From an uncultured Eubacteriales bacterium (GTDB lineage Bacteria > Bacillota > Clostridia > Oscillospirales > Acutalibacteraceae), in contig ONCP01000006.1 in the NCBI GenBank assembly GCA_900316385.1, forward strand, positions 62,001 to 126,000: DNA of 64,000 nucleotides, in the 5' to 3' direction. How positions within the stretch are numbered: the stretch's first letter is position 1; every line of letters starts with the position of its first letter. The notes below the pieces were generated by a model. The model was not told the origin of the DNA. It made no database searches and worked only from the letters and a program-made list of their open reading frames with translations. Below, one piece after another: positions 52,850 to 63,075 of this stretch. A program made the position numbers and the translations under genes.

Positions 52850-53611
52850 TTAATAATACTGATAGTAGTAGTAATAGTAGTAGCCTCTCTTGCCGCGTTT
52901 GCCCTCGCGGGTAACGCCTACTCGGATAAAGCCGAGGGGCTTTGAGTTGGTTACCTTGATATTTTGGATAAGCTTCTCGATATCGCCGTGAGTTGTTTTG
53001 CGCTCACGTGTAACAAGAATATATCCCGCTATATACTCCTTGAGCAGAAGCGCGTCGGCTACAACGCCGACAGGCGGCGAGTCAAAGATGATATAGTCAT
53101 ACTCGCGCTCGAGACGCTCGATAAATCTTGTGACCTCGGGCGAACAGATAAGCTCGGAGGGGTTCGGAGGGATCGTGCCCGCTGTGAGAACATCGAGACA
53201 CGGAAGCACGTCGCGGTGAACAACGTCATCGAACACTACCATTCGACCTACCATATCGGAGAAGCCCGCCTTGTTCTCGAGCTTAAGGATATTATGGATA
53301 TTGGGTCGGCGAAGGTCGCAGTCGATAAGAATAACCTTCTTGCCCATTTTTGAGAACGAGATAGCGAGGTTGGCGGCTACGGTACTTTTTCCGTCGCCCT
53401 TTGAGTACGAGGTTACGCAGAAAGCCTTTTTATCCGTGGCCGAGAGCGAGAACATGATATTGGTTCGCGCAGCCTTGTATGCCTCAACGATAGCAAACTT
53501 ACTTTTTTCGGAAAGGACGTTTTTGCCCTTCTTTTCGTTCTTTTTCTTATCGGTATCAGCCTTTACAGCCTTGTTTTCTCTGATTTTCTGTCCGGGTAAT
53601 TTAATTTTCAT
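52850..53611 (-). CDS. BY-family tyrosine kinase (CpsD/YwqD type)
   Basis: Bacterial tyrosine kinase of 253 residues controlling capsule or exopolysaccharide chain assembly. Walker A SKGDGKST is near residues 70-77, Walker A' VILIDCDLRRP near 95 and Walker B YIIFDSPPVGVV near 175. The C-terminus is a run of nine tyrosines broken by one glutamine, the autophosphorylation tail. The membrane activator (Wzz-type) gene is directly upstream, six bases away. No glycosyltransferase genes follow. Confidence 0.92.
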   Translation of the reverse strand: MKIKLPGQKIRENKAVKADTDKKKNEKKGKNVLSEKSKFAIVEAYKAARTNIMFSLSATDKKAFCVTSYSKGDGKSTVAANLAISFSKMGKKVILIDCDLRRPNIHNILKLENKAGFSDMVGRMVVFDDVVHRDVLPCLDVLTAGTIPPNPSELICSPEVTRFIERLEREYDYIIFDSPPVGVVADALLLKEYIAGYILVTRERKTTHGDIEKLIQNIKVTNSKPLGFIRVGVTREGKRGKRGYYYYYYYQYY

Positions 53612-56266: not shown

Positions 56267-57745
56267 TCAAAGAATAATACAGATAAGCCCGTTACAGCCG
56301 TTGTTGATGATTTTCTCTATCGTTTCGCCGATCTTGGCTCTTGCGTCCGAGGGCATACGATAGAGCTTGTTGCGCAAGCCCTCGTTCACAAGCTCGTGAA
56401 CGCTCTTGCCGAAAATATTTGATTCCCATATTTTGACGGGGTTTTCCTCAAACTCCTTGAGCATATACGCCACAAGCTCCTGACTCTGCTGTTCCGAACC
56501 GACGATCGGCGTGACCTCGGTCTTGGTGTTGACTCTCATCATATGGATCGAAGGAGCGGAAGCTCTGAGACGTATTCCGTATTTGCCCGACTGACGGATT
56601 ATCTGTGGTTCCTCAAGGCTGAGTTCATCCATTGTCGGCATTACGATGCCGTAGCCCGTTTCCTGAACCTGCTTATACGCTGCCGCGAGCTTATCGAACT
56701 CCCGCTGCTTGTCGGACAGCTCGGAAACACAGTTAAGAAGCGTACACTCATCCTTGATTTCCAGTCCCGTACGCTCCGAGAGTGTCTTGTAGAACAGCGC
56801 GGAGGGAACGGCGACGGCGATCGACGCCTGCCCCTTGCCGAGGTTAAGATCCGTAAGCCTCGAGTACTCGACGCTGTCGCAATCGGCGATTTCCGTTAGC
56901 GCGTCCTGAACCTCGCGTATCTTTTCGATTTTCCCGGCCGATTCCTTTATCACTGAGAATATCTCGCGTTTGAGCTCGTTGTCCGATGGAAGCGAAACGA
57001 CCCAGCCCGGGATATCCACCTCGATCTCCCTGATAGGAAATTCAAAAAGAAGCTGGGCGAGAATACGCTTGATCTCGTTCTCATCAAGCTCCATACAGCT
57101 GACCGGGATCACGGGAACGCCGTACTGAGCGCTTAGCTCGTTGGCGAGCTCAACACTTGAGGGGCTTTTCGGCTCCACACAGTTAAGAAGAGCGATAAAC
57201 GGCTTGTTGATCGCCTTCAGCTCGTCGATCACACGCCTTTCCGCCGCGGCATATTCCTCGCGCGGAATGTCCGAGATCGAACCGTCGGTAGTTATCACCA
57301 GTCCGATGGTGCTGTGGTCGGTGATGACCTTTCTGGTGCCGAGCTCCGCAGCCTCTCCGAACGGTATCTCCTCCTCAAACCACGGAGTTTTGACCATTCT
57401 CGGAGTTTCCTCCTCGATATATCCGAGCGCGCTTTCAACGATATATCCGACGCAGTCAACCATTCTGACGTTGAGGTTCGCCTTGTCGGAAAGCGTTATC
57501 CTGACGCTCTCTTCGGGGATGAATTTCGGCTCGGTGGTCATAATCGTTCTGCCGCCCGAGCTCTGCGGAAGCTCGTCAACGGTACGCGCAAGCACGCCCT
57601 CGTCCTTTATGTTAGGCAGTACGACGGTATCCATAAATCGCTTGATAAAGGTGCTCTTGCCCGTTCGGACGGGACCGACGACTCCTATGTATACATCGCC
57701 GTTGGTACGGCGCGAAATATCCTTGTAAACTGATCTTTCTTCCAT
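56267..57745 (-). CDS. spoIVA: Stage IV sporulation protein A (SpoIVA)
   Basis: ATP-driven cytoskeletal protein that polymerises on the forespore surface as the basement layer of the spore coat. The product is 492 residues, normal for the family. Walker A GPVRTGKS is at residues 24-31, with the TRAFAC-like switch DCVGYIVESALG near residue 95. The conserved C-terminus (NNGCNGLICIIL), which contacts SpoVM in Bacillus, is complete. It lies 12 bases after the sipL-like gene. Confidence 0.97.
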   Translation of the reverse strand: MEERSVYKDISRRTNGDVYIGVVGPVRTGKSTFIKRFMDTVVLPNIKDEGVLARTVDELPQSSGGRTIMTTEPKFIPEESVRITLSDKANLNVRMVDCVGYIVESALGYIEEETPRMVKTPWFEEEIPFGEAAELGTRKVITDHSTIGLVITTDGSISDIPREEYAAAERRVIDELKAINKPFIALLNCVEPKSPSSVELANELSAQYGVPVIPVSCMELDENEIKRILAQLLFEFPIREIEVDIPGWVVSLPSDNELKREIFSVIKESAGKIEKIREVQDALTEIADCDSVEYSRLTDLNLGKGQASIAVAVPSALFYKTLSERTGLEIKDECTLLNCVSELSDKQREFDKLAAAYKQVQETGYGIVMPTMDELSLEEPQIIRQSGKYGIRLRASAPSIHMMRVNTKTEVTPIVGSEQQSQELVAYMLKEFEENPVKIWESNIFGKSVHELVNEGLRNKLYRMPSDARAKIGETIEKIINNGCNGLICIIL

Positions 57746-57757
57746 TTTCGTTCTCCT

Positions 57758-59290
57758 TTACACTGTTGGGATCAGAAGCATCGCGGACTTGGGGAGACGC
57801 TCCGCGTCAAGACTGTTTTCAAAGGCGATCACACTCATCGGCGTACCGTACAGCTTGGCAATCTCCCACAGGCTCTCCCCCGCCTCGGCATAGTACAGCG
57901 TCAGCGCGCACTGCTTTTTTACCGCGGGTCTGTCGTCAAAGCAATTGAGTGAGCTGACGATATTGAGGCTCTGCCTTTCGCTTGTCAGAACGCTGTAATT
58001 AAGCTCGCACCTGATCTCGAGCGCGTTGTTCTCCGCGAGGCGGAAGCTGAGACTGACAACGGAAAGCTCGGAGCATTCCACGGAATTGAAACGAAAATCG
58101 GTCTCGGTCTCGCGGTTAACCTCAACGCTCCGCTCCAGATATATCGGCTCGTTGTCCTCGTTGAACGCCAGAATGCAGATGTTGAGCTTAGAGCAGAGCG
58201 TAAGCTTATTATCCGCGGCAGTGACGGTGATCGGACATTTTTCCGCCGTGATATCGATTATCTCGGAAAGCTTAACGTCATCAAGCGAAAGCGCGTCCTT
58301 GAGCATAAAGGTCTCGCTGATTTTGCGTGTGTCCTTCGGCGCGGCGACACGTGTAAGCTCAGGCTCACAGACATTCTCTGTCCCGAAAGCGTCGAGCGCG
58401 ACCGTGTACTCCTTCTGCTTGTATCCCGAAACGGTGCAGGAAAGTCGGGCGTCCACATTTACAACGGGCTTCTCGGAAAGAATATCGTTTTTCAGCTTGA
58501 CGTCGTAGGACATTACGTCAAGATTCACACAGACAGTACAATCCTCGCTTAATCCCGCACAGTCTATGACCTCGGAAAACGGAATGATATAATCAAGCCT
58601 TTCGGGCTTTGGGCTGTCCGCGTCGGAGAGATAAAGCAAGCGCGCGCAAAGCTCGCCCGAAAGCATAAGCTTGTCGGGGATAGTCCGCGTTTGGGTTATT
58701 CTCGCGTTAACGTCGGAATCGAGAACCAGCTCCACGGGCGGCTTGCCCGACACGATCACCTCGTCGCCTACCCCGAACTGAGCTCCTCCGAGAGCGGAAA
58801 GCGACGAAAGGCTTACATCGCGCGTCAGAAACTCGGCGTTTTCAATATCCTCAGGCGAAAAAAGGTCGGTTTCCTCCTTTTTAAGCAGCCTCGCGCAAAG
58901 CGAAAACGCCCCGTGGACCGTCATTCTCCTGCGGGACAACGCCCGACAATTAACATACTCGCACTTTGCGCCCGTTTCCATAACGTAATCCTCGGGCGTT
59001 TCCTTAAGCCTGAAAACAGCGGAAAACGGCACCGTCTGCTCCGCTACTCTTACGTGACCGTTTTCGCTGTCGGCATAAAGCACGGAAACAACAGTGTTTC
59101 CCTCAAGCTGGAGCTGTCCTCCGCTGAGATTTCTGCTGTAAATCTTCGGCGTAAGCTTACAGCGAAGAAGCTTTTCGATATCGGGGCAGTAATCGGGCAG
59201 AGTGAAGTCGATATCCACAGGCTGCTCGCTGACGGCGTCAAGCGCCGCCGAAAGCGAAGCCAGCGGAGTTCTTTTGAGATTCAATTCCAT
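57758..59290 (-). CDS. sipL: SipL-like coat morphogenesis protein (DUF3794 repeats plus LysM)
   Basis: A 510-residue protein with an N-terminal SPOCS/DUF3794 region (DIDFTLPDYCPDIEKLLRC near residue 28), further DUF3794 segments near 190-260 and 330-420, and a C-terminal LysM domain (residues about 462-508; YYAEAGESLWEIAKLYGT). This architecture is that of C. difficile SipL, whose LysM domain binds SpoIVA. Direct linkage to spoIVA supports the same role. Candidate -10 AATATAAT lies upstream, but no clear SigE -35. Confidence 0.85.
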   Translation of the reverse strand: MELNLKRTPLASLSAALDAVSEQPVDIDFTLPDYCPDIEKLLRCKLTPKIYSRNLSGGQLQLEGNTVVSVLYADSENGHVRVAEQTVPFSAVFRLKETPEDYVMETGAKCEYVNCRALSRRRMTVHGAFSLCARLLKKEETDLFSPEDIENAEFLTRDVSLSSLSALGGAQFGVGDEVIVSGKPPVELVLDSDVNARITQTRTIPDKLMLSGELCARLLYLSDADSPKPERLDYIIPFSEVIDCAGLSEDCTVCVNLDVMSYDVKLKNDILSEKPVVNVDARLSCTVSGYKQKEYTVALDAFGTENVCEPELTRVAAPKDTRKISETFMLKDALSLDDVKLSEIIDITAEKCPITVTAADNKLTLCSKLNICILAFNEDNEPIYLERSVEVNRETETDFRFNSVECSELSVVSLSFRLAENNALEIRCELNYSVLTSERQSLNIVSSLNCFDDRPAVKKQCALTLYYAEAGESLWEIAKLYGTPMSVIAFENSLDAERLPKSAMLLIPTV

Positions 59291-59356
59291 ATATTTGTCT
59301 CTCCTTATATTTTTGGTAAATTATATTTTGGCATAATAGATTTTAGAACCATTTTT

Positions 59357-59397
59357 AAAAAAGCAGATGAGCCGTCCGCTTATTCAGCGACGGCTCA
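59357..59397 (-). terminator. Terminator of the spoVM unit
   Basis: Stem TGAGCCGTC/GACGGCTCA with a 12-base loop that can pair further (GCTGAATAAGC), followed by TCTGCTTTTTT on the minus strand. It separates spoVM from sipL-spoIVA. Confidence 0.87.
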
Positions 59398-59419
59398 CCG
59401 ATGTTATCATATTTGAATC

Positions 59420-59506
59420 TCAGCTTTCGGGCTGCTTCTTTATCCCGAAGATCTTTCTCAGGAAAAAAGACAGAAATTTCGGATTTTCAATAAGTACTAC
59501 TTTCAT
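59420..59506 (-). CDS. spoVM: SpoVM, amphipathic spore-coat anchor peptide (28 residues)
   Basis: A 28-residue peptide: MKVVLIENPKFLSFFLRK, then IFGIKKQPES. It matches the layout of B. subtilis SpoVM (26 residues): Met-Lys start, Ile6, Pro9-Lys-Phe-Leu, Arg17 and Gly21 all fall at the same positions. SpoVM is an amphipathic helix that marks the convex forespore membrane and anchors SpoIVA. AGGAGG is six bases before the ATG and lies within the stop region of the upstream 47-residue gene. The sipL-spoIVA unit follows. Confidence 0.88.
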   Translation of the reverse strand: MKVVLIENPKFLSFFLRKIFGIKKQPES

Positions 59507-59509
59507 AAG

Positions 59510-59653
59510 CTACCTCCTGCACAGTGACCATGCGAGTAAAATTACGGTGACTAACGATATTATCAGCACCCATCTGCAGGGCAGTATTGTCGCGAGAAAA
59601 AGCCCGAACCCAAACGCGAGGGCGAGCGAGATTTGCTGTCGATAAGTATTCAT
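59510..59653 (-). CDS. 47-residue two-helix membrane protein upstream of spoVM
   Basis: ATG at 59651-59653 to TAG at 59510-59512, with AAAGGGTG seven bases upstream. The product has two hydrophobic segments (about residues 9-24 and 28-44) joined by a tight PCRW turn, and ends CRR. The spoVM ribosome site overlaps its last codons, so the two are translationally coupled. I do not recognise the family; context points to forespore membrane or coat assembly. Confidence 0.7.
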   Translation of the reverse strand: MNTYRQQISLALAFGFGLFLATILPCRWVLIISLVTVILLAWSLCRR

Positions 59654-59669
59654 TTAATCACCCTTTAGC

Positions 59670-59698
59670 AGTATATCCTACAAGACGAAAAGTGTTAC
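59670..59698 (-). promoter_or_regulatory. Candidate promoter of the 47-residue ORF-spoVM unit
   Basis: On the minus strand GTAACA is followed after 17 bases by TATACT, giving a very short leader. This is SigA-like; I find no good SigE pair although SigE control would be expected. Confidence 0.3.
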
Positions 59699-60738: not shown

Positions 60739-63075
60739 TTACTTTACCGTCATGGGGATTCCGTAGAATCTGATATTGCCGTGAACGATGAAGGGGATCA
60801 CGGTGTAGTTTTCTCCTGTCGAGGCGGCGGTAAAGTTCTTTTCGGAGATATCGGCGAGGAAGGCGTCACCTCTGAGGATCCTGTAACCCGATACCTTTGC
60901 GGCGGGCTTGATAACGAGATTGTCAACGCCGTCGGACGTTTCAAGCGTTACGCTGTCAAGCGAAAGCTCACCCGAAACAGTCTTGTAGGAATTCATAGCG
61001 TCGCCCTTACAGCGGTATCTGACCGCGGTTCCGTCGGAGCGGAAGTTTGTGAGCGCGGTAGCGTCAAGGTTCTCGTAGAACAGCCTGACTCCCGTATAGT
61101 CGCCGCCTGTGTCGAGAGAGTTGCCCGAGATCAACAGGCTTTTCGCGATATTCTTATTTGAGGAAGCTCCGTTGAGGTAAATCGCTTCCTTTTCCGACTT
61201 CACGTTGTTTTCGATTATACCCGTCGACATACAGTTCGCGGCGAGCCTTACTCCGTAAGAATCACTGTAAATATCATTCTTCACAAGGTTGAGAGAACCG
61301 ATATTTGCCGCGTACACGCCGTTTGTTTTTGCTTTCACCGTGTTCTCCTCGGCATATACGCTGTCAGCGGAATTGATATAGATCCCGTTTTCGGGTCTTG
61401 TCAACGAATTGTTCCTCAGCGATACAGACGTTTCGCTTCCGTTGATATATGCTCCGTTTTTAGCGGCGCTGAAAACGTTGTATTCCGCGACAGCCAATCG
61501 CGAGGCGTTGAGCTTCAAAGCGGTAACGCCGCAGTTCGTGACGATATTGTTATAGAGCTCGGAATAATCCGATTTGTTGATATTGATAGCGACGTTCGTG
61601 ATTTTGTCCAGCAAATTATTGGAAAGATTTATCGAGTTGTTTCCAAAGCCTGCGGCAGTAGTAGTCAGCGTTATCCCGTAGGAATCGGAACGCTTGCTGT
61701 TGATGATCGAATTTGAGGCCGCGGTCACGCGCTCACAGCCCTTGAGCTCGATCCCGTTCGCCGAATCGTCGGCAGCGCTCTCGGAGAGGTCAATGGTATT
61801 GTACTTGATCAGAGAATTCACGCCGTAGTTGAGCTGGATACCGACGGAAAGGTTGCCCGAGATAGCGTTCGGCTTTGCTTTTTTATTCTCGTCAAGCCCG
61901 ATAAAAACATTATAAATCTTATAGGTTCCCGATTTTGTGCCTGTTGTCTTATCGTCCGCAGAGTAATGGTCGCCCATAACGCGGATACCGCATTCACGGG
62001 TAAAGATGTTGTTCTCGACCCTGACGCGGATATTGTTATCGTAAATATGGCAGGTCGAATCTCTAACTGCGGACTCGCAGCGCGAATAGCTGAGATTGCT
62101 TTTATTATAGAAGTTAAGACCTGCGCCGCTGGTCATATTTCTCATATCGATACCGAGTCCGACGTCGCGCATAACGTTAGAATAAATCTTTGAGTTTGTC
62201 CAGTAAACAGCGTAGACCGATATTCCGCCGATATTCTCCATAACGTTATTGTGTACCGAAATATTCTCAAACGGTTTGCCGAGCACGGCGTGATGGCTGC
62301 CGATCGCGCGGAATTTATTTTTGAAGCGGTTGTTGAATATCTCGATATTCTTGCAGGGCGTGAGGTCGTAAGCGGGAAAATACGGCATAGCGGAGCTGTC
62401 GTTGAGGTCGATCTGGAGCGACTCTCGTCCGCCGTCGTTAGTCAGGCCGTTGACAGACTTCGTATTATAAAAGCGGCAATCATAGATTTTCGCCTTGTTT
62501 ACACCCGCGATCTCGATATCGTGACAATTGTAGTTGTTTTTAAACGCCGCGTTCTTCACCTTGAGGTTTGTCATATGGGCAAAACGGAAGGTTGAGTGCA
62601 TTTTGGTTGTGTCTGTCGAATTTGCGTACTTATAGTCGATCAACTGCTCCCATTCGCCGCCCTTGATCGTGATATTCTTTGCCGAAGAATAGCCGTAACC
62701 CGAGCTTTGCCTGTTATCGAAGCCGTTTCTGAGCAGGTTTCCGTAATACTGAAAGTACGAGCCTGTCGTATCGAGGATAGTGTTTGAAAAAACCTTGATG
62801 GTTCTGTCGAGCTTGTAATGACCTTTTTCTACCGTGACCCTTGCGGGGGTTTTGGCGGTCGCCTTCTTTCCCGCCGTCTCGAGCGCCGTATTGAGCGCTA
62901 TCGAAAAATTGTTGAAATATTTTTTTGCAGTAAAGGTCTTGCGGTAGGAACCGCACGCCACAGTCGCCGAGCCTGTATTATTGACATACTTTACCGCCGC
63001 GGAAACGTTGAGCGAACCGAGCGAAAGCAAAAACAGCGACGAAAGCAGCACGGGAATTGTTTTCAATTTTTTCAT
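60739..63075 (-). CDS. Secreted right-handed parallel beta-helix protein
   Basis: A 778-residue exported protein. The signal peptide is about residues 1-26 (cleavage after NVSA). A very long run of beta-helix coils with N-rich turns follows (IKYNTIDLSESAADDSANGIEL-like rungs, NNLLDKITNVAINI, residues about 110-680). A C-terminal beta domain of about 90 residues follows. No pectate-lyase or other catalytic triad is obvious, so it may bind or cleave carbohydrate. No sortase or S-layer anchor is seen. It is likely monocistronic. Confidence 0.85.
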   Translation of the reverse strand: MKKLKTIPVLLSSLFLLSLGSLNVSAAVKYVNNTGSATVACGSYRKTFTAKKYFNNFSIALNTALETAGKKATAKTPARVTVEKGHYKLDRTIKVFSNTILDTTGSYFQYYGNLLRNGFDNRQSSGYGYSSAKNITIKGGEWEQLIDYKYANSTDTTKMHSTFRFAHMTNLKVKNAAFKNNYNCHDIEIAGVNKAKIYDCRFYNTKSVNGLTNDGGRESLQIDLNDSSAMPYFPAYDLTPCKNIEIFNNRFKNKFRAIGSHHAVLGKPFENISVHNNVMENIGGISVYAVYWTNSKIYSNVMRDVGLGIDMRNMTSGAGLNFYNKSNLSYSRCESAVRDSTCHIYDNNIRVRVENNIFTRECGIRVMGDHYSADDKTTGTKSGTYKIYNVFIGLDENKKAKPNAISGNLSVGIQLNYGVNSLIKYNTIDLSESAADDSANGIELKGCERVTAASNSIINSKRSDSYGITLTTTAAGFGNNSINLSNNLLDKITNVAININKSDYSELYNNIVTNCGVTALKLNASRLAVAEYNVFSAAKNGAYINGSETSVSLRNNSLTRPENGIYINSADSVYAEENTVKAKTNGVYAANIGSLNLVKNDIYSDSYGVRLAANCMSTGIIENNVKSEKEAIYLNGASSNKNIAKSLLISGNSLDTGGDYTGVRLFYENLDATALTNFRSDGTAVRYRCKGDAMNSYKTVSGELSLDSVTLETSDGVDNLVIKPAAKVSGYRILRGDAFLADISEKNFTAASTGENYTVIPFIVHGNIRFYGIPMTVK

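Follow-up and report, generated by a model that had tools for sequence, protein, structure and literature searches.

SpoVM is a tiny protein that starts assembly of the spore coat, and it is the textbook reader of micron-scale membrane curvature, with Pro9 held to be its key residue. The stretch of DNA analysed here (64,000 nt; the window) carries a 28-codon ORF on the reverse strand (nt 59420–59506) that was described, in a preliminary description, as an unusually divergent spoVM whose altered helix face may change curvature sensing. The questions raised by this locus are whether so short a frame is a genuine spoVM, whether its product is unusual, and what accompanies it.

The encoded peptide, MKVVLIENPKFLSFFLRKIFGIKKQPES, carries Ile6, Pro9-Lys-Phe-Leu, Arg17 and Gly21 at the same positions as in B. 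subtilis SpoVM, just as claimed, and Lys2 is likewise in its B. subtilis position; a function has been shown for Pro9, Lys2 and Ile6 of the B. subtilis protein (PMC5607322). The proposed ribosome site is also present, as AGGAGG 6 nt 5' of the ATG. The peptide matches NCBIfam NF033436 (SpoVM_broad) with 47.6 bits (E 1.2e-12; curated cut-off 31) and is the sole significant match to this model in its own genome. Among 60 genomes of the same genus, its own counted, 54 have a SpoVM match, and the genus-wide dN/dS of ~0.10 (0.101) indicates purifying selection; frame-shifted controls gave pN/pS values of 1.9 and 2.2. That the peptide is a chance ORF might be suggested by its shortness and by the lack of a match to Pfam PF08183, but this model is narrow, does not match the SpoVM of Ruminococcus bromii either, and puts that of C. 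difficile under its cut-off, so it was dropped as a test of family membership. Given the unique NF033436 match, the conservation within the genus and the dN/dS value, a chance origin retains next to no probability; the dN/dS and family tests already suffice to reject it. The remark that genes of this size often escape annotation is true, yet already published, since Galperin (2012) tabulated 70 genomes with an overlooked spoVM (PMC3533761).

The supposed divergence, on the other hand, did not hold. The window SpoVM lies 16 bits above the NF033436 cut-off, and scores higher than those of R. bromii (46.0 bits) and a C. difficile-like genome (29.1 bits). What speaks for a functionally divergent protein with altered curvature sensing is the sequence Ser-Phe-Phe-Leu at positions 13–16, which places Phe14 and Phe15 where Bacillus has Gly14 and Ile15. 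However, the identical four residues occur in six others among the 169 distinct SpoVMs sampled, close relatives included, and Phe is found at position 14 in 25/169 and at position 15 in 20/169. Ile15 is functionally important in B. subtilis, but occurs in 98 of the 169 and is hence not family-defining. Residues 10–23 have a hydrophobic moment of 0.47, close to the 0.49 of B. subtilis, and so do not point to a change in curvature sensing. The helix face, being common to relatives and part of a helix with an ordinary moment, was therefore dropped as a special feature and, with Pro9 retained and the family score high, a change in curvature sensing is very improbable. The window and B. subtilis proteins share an amphipathic helix and are similar in length (28 and 26 aa), and both have a SpoIVA with Gly486, encoded nearby in the window. 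The gene is a normal clostridial spoVM. More unusual are a partner gene and, in relatives, SpoVMs that lack the proline, neither of which was noted in the preliminary description.

In keeping with the earlier placement of the gene beside sipL–spoIVA, both of these lie 3' of spoVM on the same strand, whereas the B. subtilis gene adjoins rpmB. The sipL gene (nt 57758–59290, reverse strand) encodes a SPOCS domain and a C-terminal LysM-like domain (Pfam SipL, E 1.9e-29), and spoIVA (nt 56267–57745, reverse strand) encodes 492 aa (TIGR02836, 698 bits). A genetic partnership between Gly486 of SpoIVA and Ile6 of SpoVM has been reported (PMC5607322), and the window sequence keeps both residues. Between spoVM and sipL is a strong intrinsic terminator (nt 59350–59400, reverse strand; a hairpin followed by U6, -24.5 kcal/mol, z -4.7), so that the two genes, while neighbours, are probably on separate transcription units. 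By its SpoIVA relatives the window belongs to the R. bromii group: among named matches the best come mostly from uncultured Ruminococcus MAGs (82–84%), and R. bromii 5AMG, the SpoVM of which is MKVVLIEKPKFISAILRKIYGIKKETKPE, stands at 73%. Thirteen related loci have both spoVM and spoIVA, and in these the start of spoVM is 1.8–5.0 kb 5' of spoIVA on the same strand. Elsewhere in the class the neighbours of spoVM can be rsgA–thiN or rpmB; Caproicibacter (L285) and the C. difficile-like genome (L173) are examples. The sipL–spoIVA position therefore looks like a lineage arrangement. In these and the other relatives, neighbouring genes were named by reading ORFs by eye. Two other parts of the window, also read by eye, may be mentioned here. 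A gene at nt 52850–53611 (reverse strand) would encode a polysaccharide-type tyrosine kinase with a C-terminal tyrosine run, YYYYYYYQYY, and adjoins a gene for a Wzz-like chain-length protein, while nt 60739–63075 (reverse strand) appears to encode a large secreted protein resembling a right-handed beta-helix built from numerous short repeats.

The partner gene is a 47-codon ORF lying directly upstream of spoVM (nt 59510–59653, reverse strand), which had been overlooked. Conservation, profile homology, dN/dS and a structural model all point to a two-helix membrane protein, MNTYRQQISLALAFGFGLFLATILPCRWVLIISLVTVILLAWSLCRR, and the ORF is here called the hairpin gene. Its stop codon is 3 nt 5' of the spoVM ATG, and its end reads AGG AGG TAG, so that the Shine-Dalgarno sequence of spoVM (AGGAGG, nt 59513–59518, reverse strand) is formed by its last two sense codons (Arg-Arg). 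Genus members typically have CGGAGG or AGGAGG and then a stop at this point. The hairpin gene has its own ribosome site, AAAGGGTGAT (nt 59657–59666, reverse strand), of which most genus members carry close variants of the form AGGGTGAT. Further 5' is a promoter-like element, GTAACA-N15-GATATA (nt 59672–59698, reverse strand). Of 34 upstream regions from the genus, 31 contain the pattern GTAAC/[GT]CAC-N12-20-TATA, where 1.2 would be expected, and its -10-like GTATA is a loose fit to sigma-E or sigma-K. AlphaFold models the protein, with moderate confidence (pLDDT 70, pTM 0.35), as helices at residues 3–22 and 28–46 joined by a short Pro-bearing loop. Across 24 divergent hairpin proteins Pro25 is invariant and Gly17 nearly so, and the dN/dS of the gene within the genus is 0.156 (16 usable pairs). 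The window protein fits the traits of the family, namely ~46–62 aa, two helices, a proline at the turn and a glycine eight residues earlier. A scan of Pfam and NCBIfam assigned it to no family, its relatives giving weak noise below the cut-offs, and a fold search against viral models found nothing.

The association with spoVM extends throughout the class. When 98 spoVM loci were sampled from the genus, order and class, counting as hairpin any small hydrophobic ORF that ended not more than ~60 nt 5' of spoVM, 72 had such an ORF, compared with 2.4% of random positions. About a quarter had none by this criterion, and the gene seems to be missing from some clades that have SpoVM, and would then not be obligatory. 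Genome G059 had been listed as the sole exception in the genus, but this was set aside, as the gene is present and is parted from spoVM by a ~140-bp insert. At locus L017 (~1350–1500; same genome as L034), such an insert of ~140 bp, with the inverted repeat AAATAAGTGTTA...TAACACTTATTT, lies between the two genes and takes away the usual spoVM ribosome site; it was seen in one genus member. Comparison of the genus profile with the distant upstream ORFs by hhalign gave a probability of 97% (E 3e-11; reversed decoy 0.6%). By subgroup most comparisons were strong and those for families f26 and f68 weak, where the upstream ORF could be a replacement.

The reverse search, with hairpin profile A1 alone as query (24 rows, E 1e-3), returned matches in 124 of 393 class genomes, exactly one in each, a count that is partly circular as the rows of A1 were drawn in part from the class sample. 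The presence of spoVM downstream in genomes outside the A1 build is free of this circularity. Of 90 hairpin places examined, 70 had a SpoVM micro-ORF of strict pattern directly 3' (random places 0.36%), and at least 56 of these 70 SpoVMs were in genomes without an NF033436 match at E 1e-4. The other 20 comprised 15 with a recognisable SpoVM that has Pro8 or is proline-less, and 5 without a SpoVM. For the genomes behind 19 named loci, the hairpin was found in 17, with spoVM directly 3' in all 17. In the phylum sample beyond the class matches were few, but all six in family f180 precede SpoVM (L293–L298, e.g. MRIMVFKMPRFLSKLIKKLFKISDDK; an rpmB-like ORF is near in L293). Most hairpin genomes also have spoIVA (117/124; Fisher p 4e-12). 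The profile is short and hydrophobic, and matches near E 1e-3, such as those in G334 and G337, look spurious. Matches without a recognisable spoVM 3' were recorded at L242, L246, L248, L257 and L272, possibly a paralogue or a decoupled gene; four of them share the form SYKKK..xGLL..S.G.G.LL..TMP..GW.

One upstream partner has been described before. By RNA-seq, Ribis et al. (2017) found C. difficile spoVM to be cotranscribed with, and 3' of, CD25622, which encodes a 50-aa protein reported to be restricted to Peptostreptococcaceae, and showed spoVM to be sigma-E dependent (PMC5607322); this was the only open-licence paper found on an upstream spoVM partner. When CD25622 was disrupted by an insertion, which was polar on spoVM, the phenotype was like that of a spoVM mutant alone, and no worse (PMC5607322). 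No extra role for CD25622 was thus seen. In genome G353 of the sample studied here, a fragment of RpoB shows 99% identity to PDB 7l7b, taken here as C. difficile RNA polymerase. The spoVM of G353 adjoins rpmB and has a 50-aa hairpin directly 5', in agreement with the published description (PMC5607322). This hairpin is recovered even by a profile built without it (22.3 bits, E 4e-4 at Z=1e5), a modest significance for a hydrophobic sequence, and E values of 4e-7 and 1e-5 were obtained for two other genomes of family f75. The assignment of family f59 to Peptostreptococcaceae was rejected, its RpoB fragments being just ~66–70% identical to 7l7b. It is highly likely from these profile matches that CD25622 is a member of the hairpin family. 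Like the window gene, it encodes a small protein directly 5' of spoVM on the same strand; it differs in its low identity to the window protein (21%, using the G353 hairpin) and in its reported confinement to one bacterial family, where the present data make it one branch of a Clostridia-wide family.

We regard it as probable that the hairpin gene and spoVM form a two-gene mother-cell micro-operon, in that order. This reading, which concerns the operon and not the role of the hairpin, rests on the constraint on both frames, the tight Clostridia-wide linkage, the shared promoter-like element, the spoVM ribosome site within the end of the first gene, and the terminator 3' of spoVM. The mother cell would make both proteins together, the probable sigma factor being sigma-E, as reported for the C. 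difficile pair. SpoVM would then rest on the outer forespore membrane in the form of an amphipathic helix and recruit SpoIVA. The hairpin protein may sit in the same membrane and aid SpoVM, perhaps as a stabiliser or as a link to the assembly of coat or cortex. A comparable case is CmpA, a small Bacillus protein that monitors SpoVM–SpoIVA. The resemblance, that of a tiny sporulation protein tied to SpoVM–SpoIVA and cortex assembly, is by analogy only, and CmpA is reported to be absent from Clostridia (PMC5607322).

Whether the hairpin protein has a role of its own is a separate matter. The upstream ORF could be a leader peptide, irrelevant as a product, that serves through its translation to open up the mRNA and to bring ribosomes to spoVM. 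The position of the spoVM ribosome site in the last codons of the ORF, the 3-nt gap, the similar gaps across the genus and the lack of any phenotype beyond SpoVM loss in the C. difficile insertion mutant are all as expected of a leader. Such a peptide would have no need to span a membrane, however, and the constraint acts at the protein level over the hairpin core, with its invariant Pro and near-invariant Gly; beyond the genus, moreover, the gap is often 10–60 nt, and in G059, with its insert, ~140 nt, and still the hairpin is kept. We consider a leader function unlikely on this evidence. It is similarly doubtful that the protein is an unrelated membrane microprotein, concerned with stress or the envelope, that is hitch-hiking in the spoVM operon. 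The spoVM loci without a hairpin would fit such a history, but the linkage holds at family-level distances within Clostridia and in f180 beyond the class, is seen in both thiN/rpmB (L285, L173, L293) and R. bromii-clade sipL–spoIVA neighbourhoods, and the distribution of the hairpin tracks that of spoIVA. That the hairpin protein helps SpoVM at the forespore membrane may be put forward tentatively, at somewhat less than an even chance; a purely translational, leader-like role is improbable, and another membrane role takes up the rest. The more specific proposal, that it is an ancestral clostridial partner that places or holds SpoVM on the forespore membrane, is rather speculative but, if true, would help to explain the loss of Pro9 from some Oscillospirales SpoVMs.

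These losses came to light with the hairpin gene used as a beacon. Pro9 was given by Ribis et al. as the sole completely conserved residue of SpoVM (PMC5607322), and the substitution P9A abolishes curvature discrimination by the B. subtilis protein (PMC12004969). The window SpoVM itself retains Pro9. Caproicibacter fermentans EA1 (MKVVVVHSSKFWSFLLRRMFNIKKEQ) and Clostridia bacterium UC5.1-1E11 both have Ser9. Six genomes from the family to which the window belongs, all with spoIVA, have Ser, Lys, Thr or His as residue 9. The Pro9-less genes at L277, L285, L206–L208, L235, L240 and L263 each lie behind a hairpin gene. In nine further distinct SpoVMs the proline is residue 8 and is followed by Gly, Lys or Ser (L210, L220, L223, L225, L226, L231, L244, L245 and L256). 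In published P9A variants a proline was put back at positions 7–13 (PMC12004969), and the natural Pro8 proteins can be compared with these.

A gene paired with spoVM across Clostridia has thus been without a profile family in Pfam or NCBIfam. Its use as a beacon finds SpoVM genes that the current model misses, a gap left by the earlier survey of Galperin (2012; PMC3533761). Peptides based on the natural SpoVMs that have Pro8, or in which residue 9 is Ser, Thr, His or Lys, allow a direct test of the curvature model, and the hairpin protein is a concrete candidate for how Clostridia start coat assembly without the SpoVID and CmpA of Bacillus.
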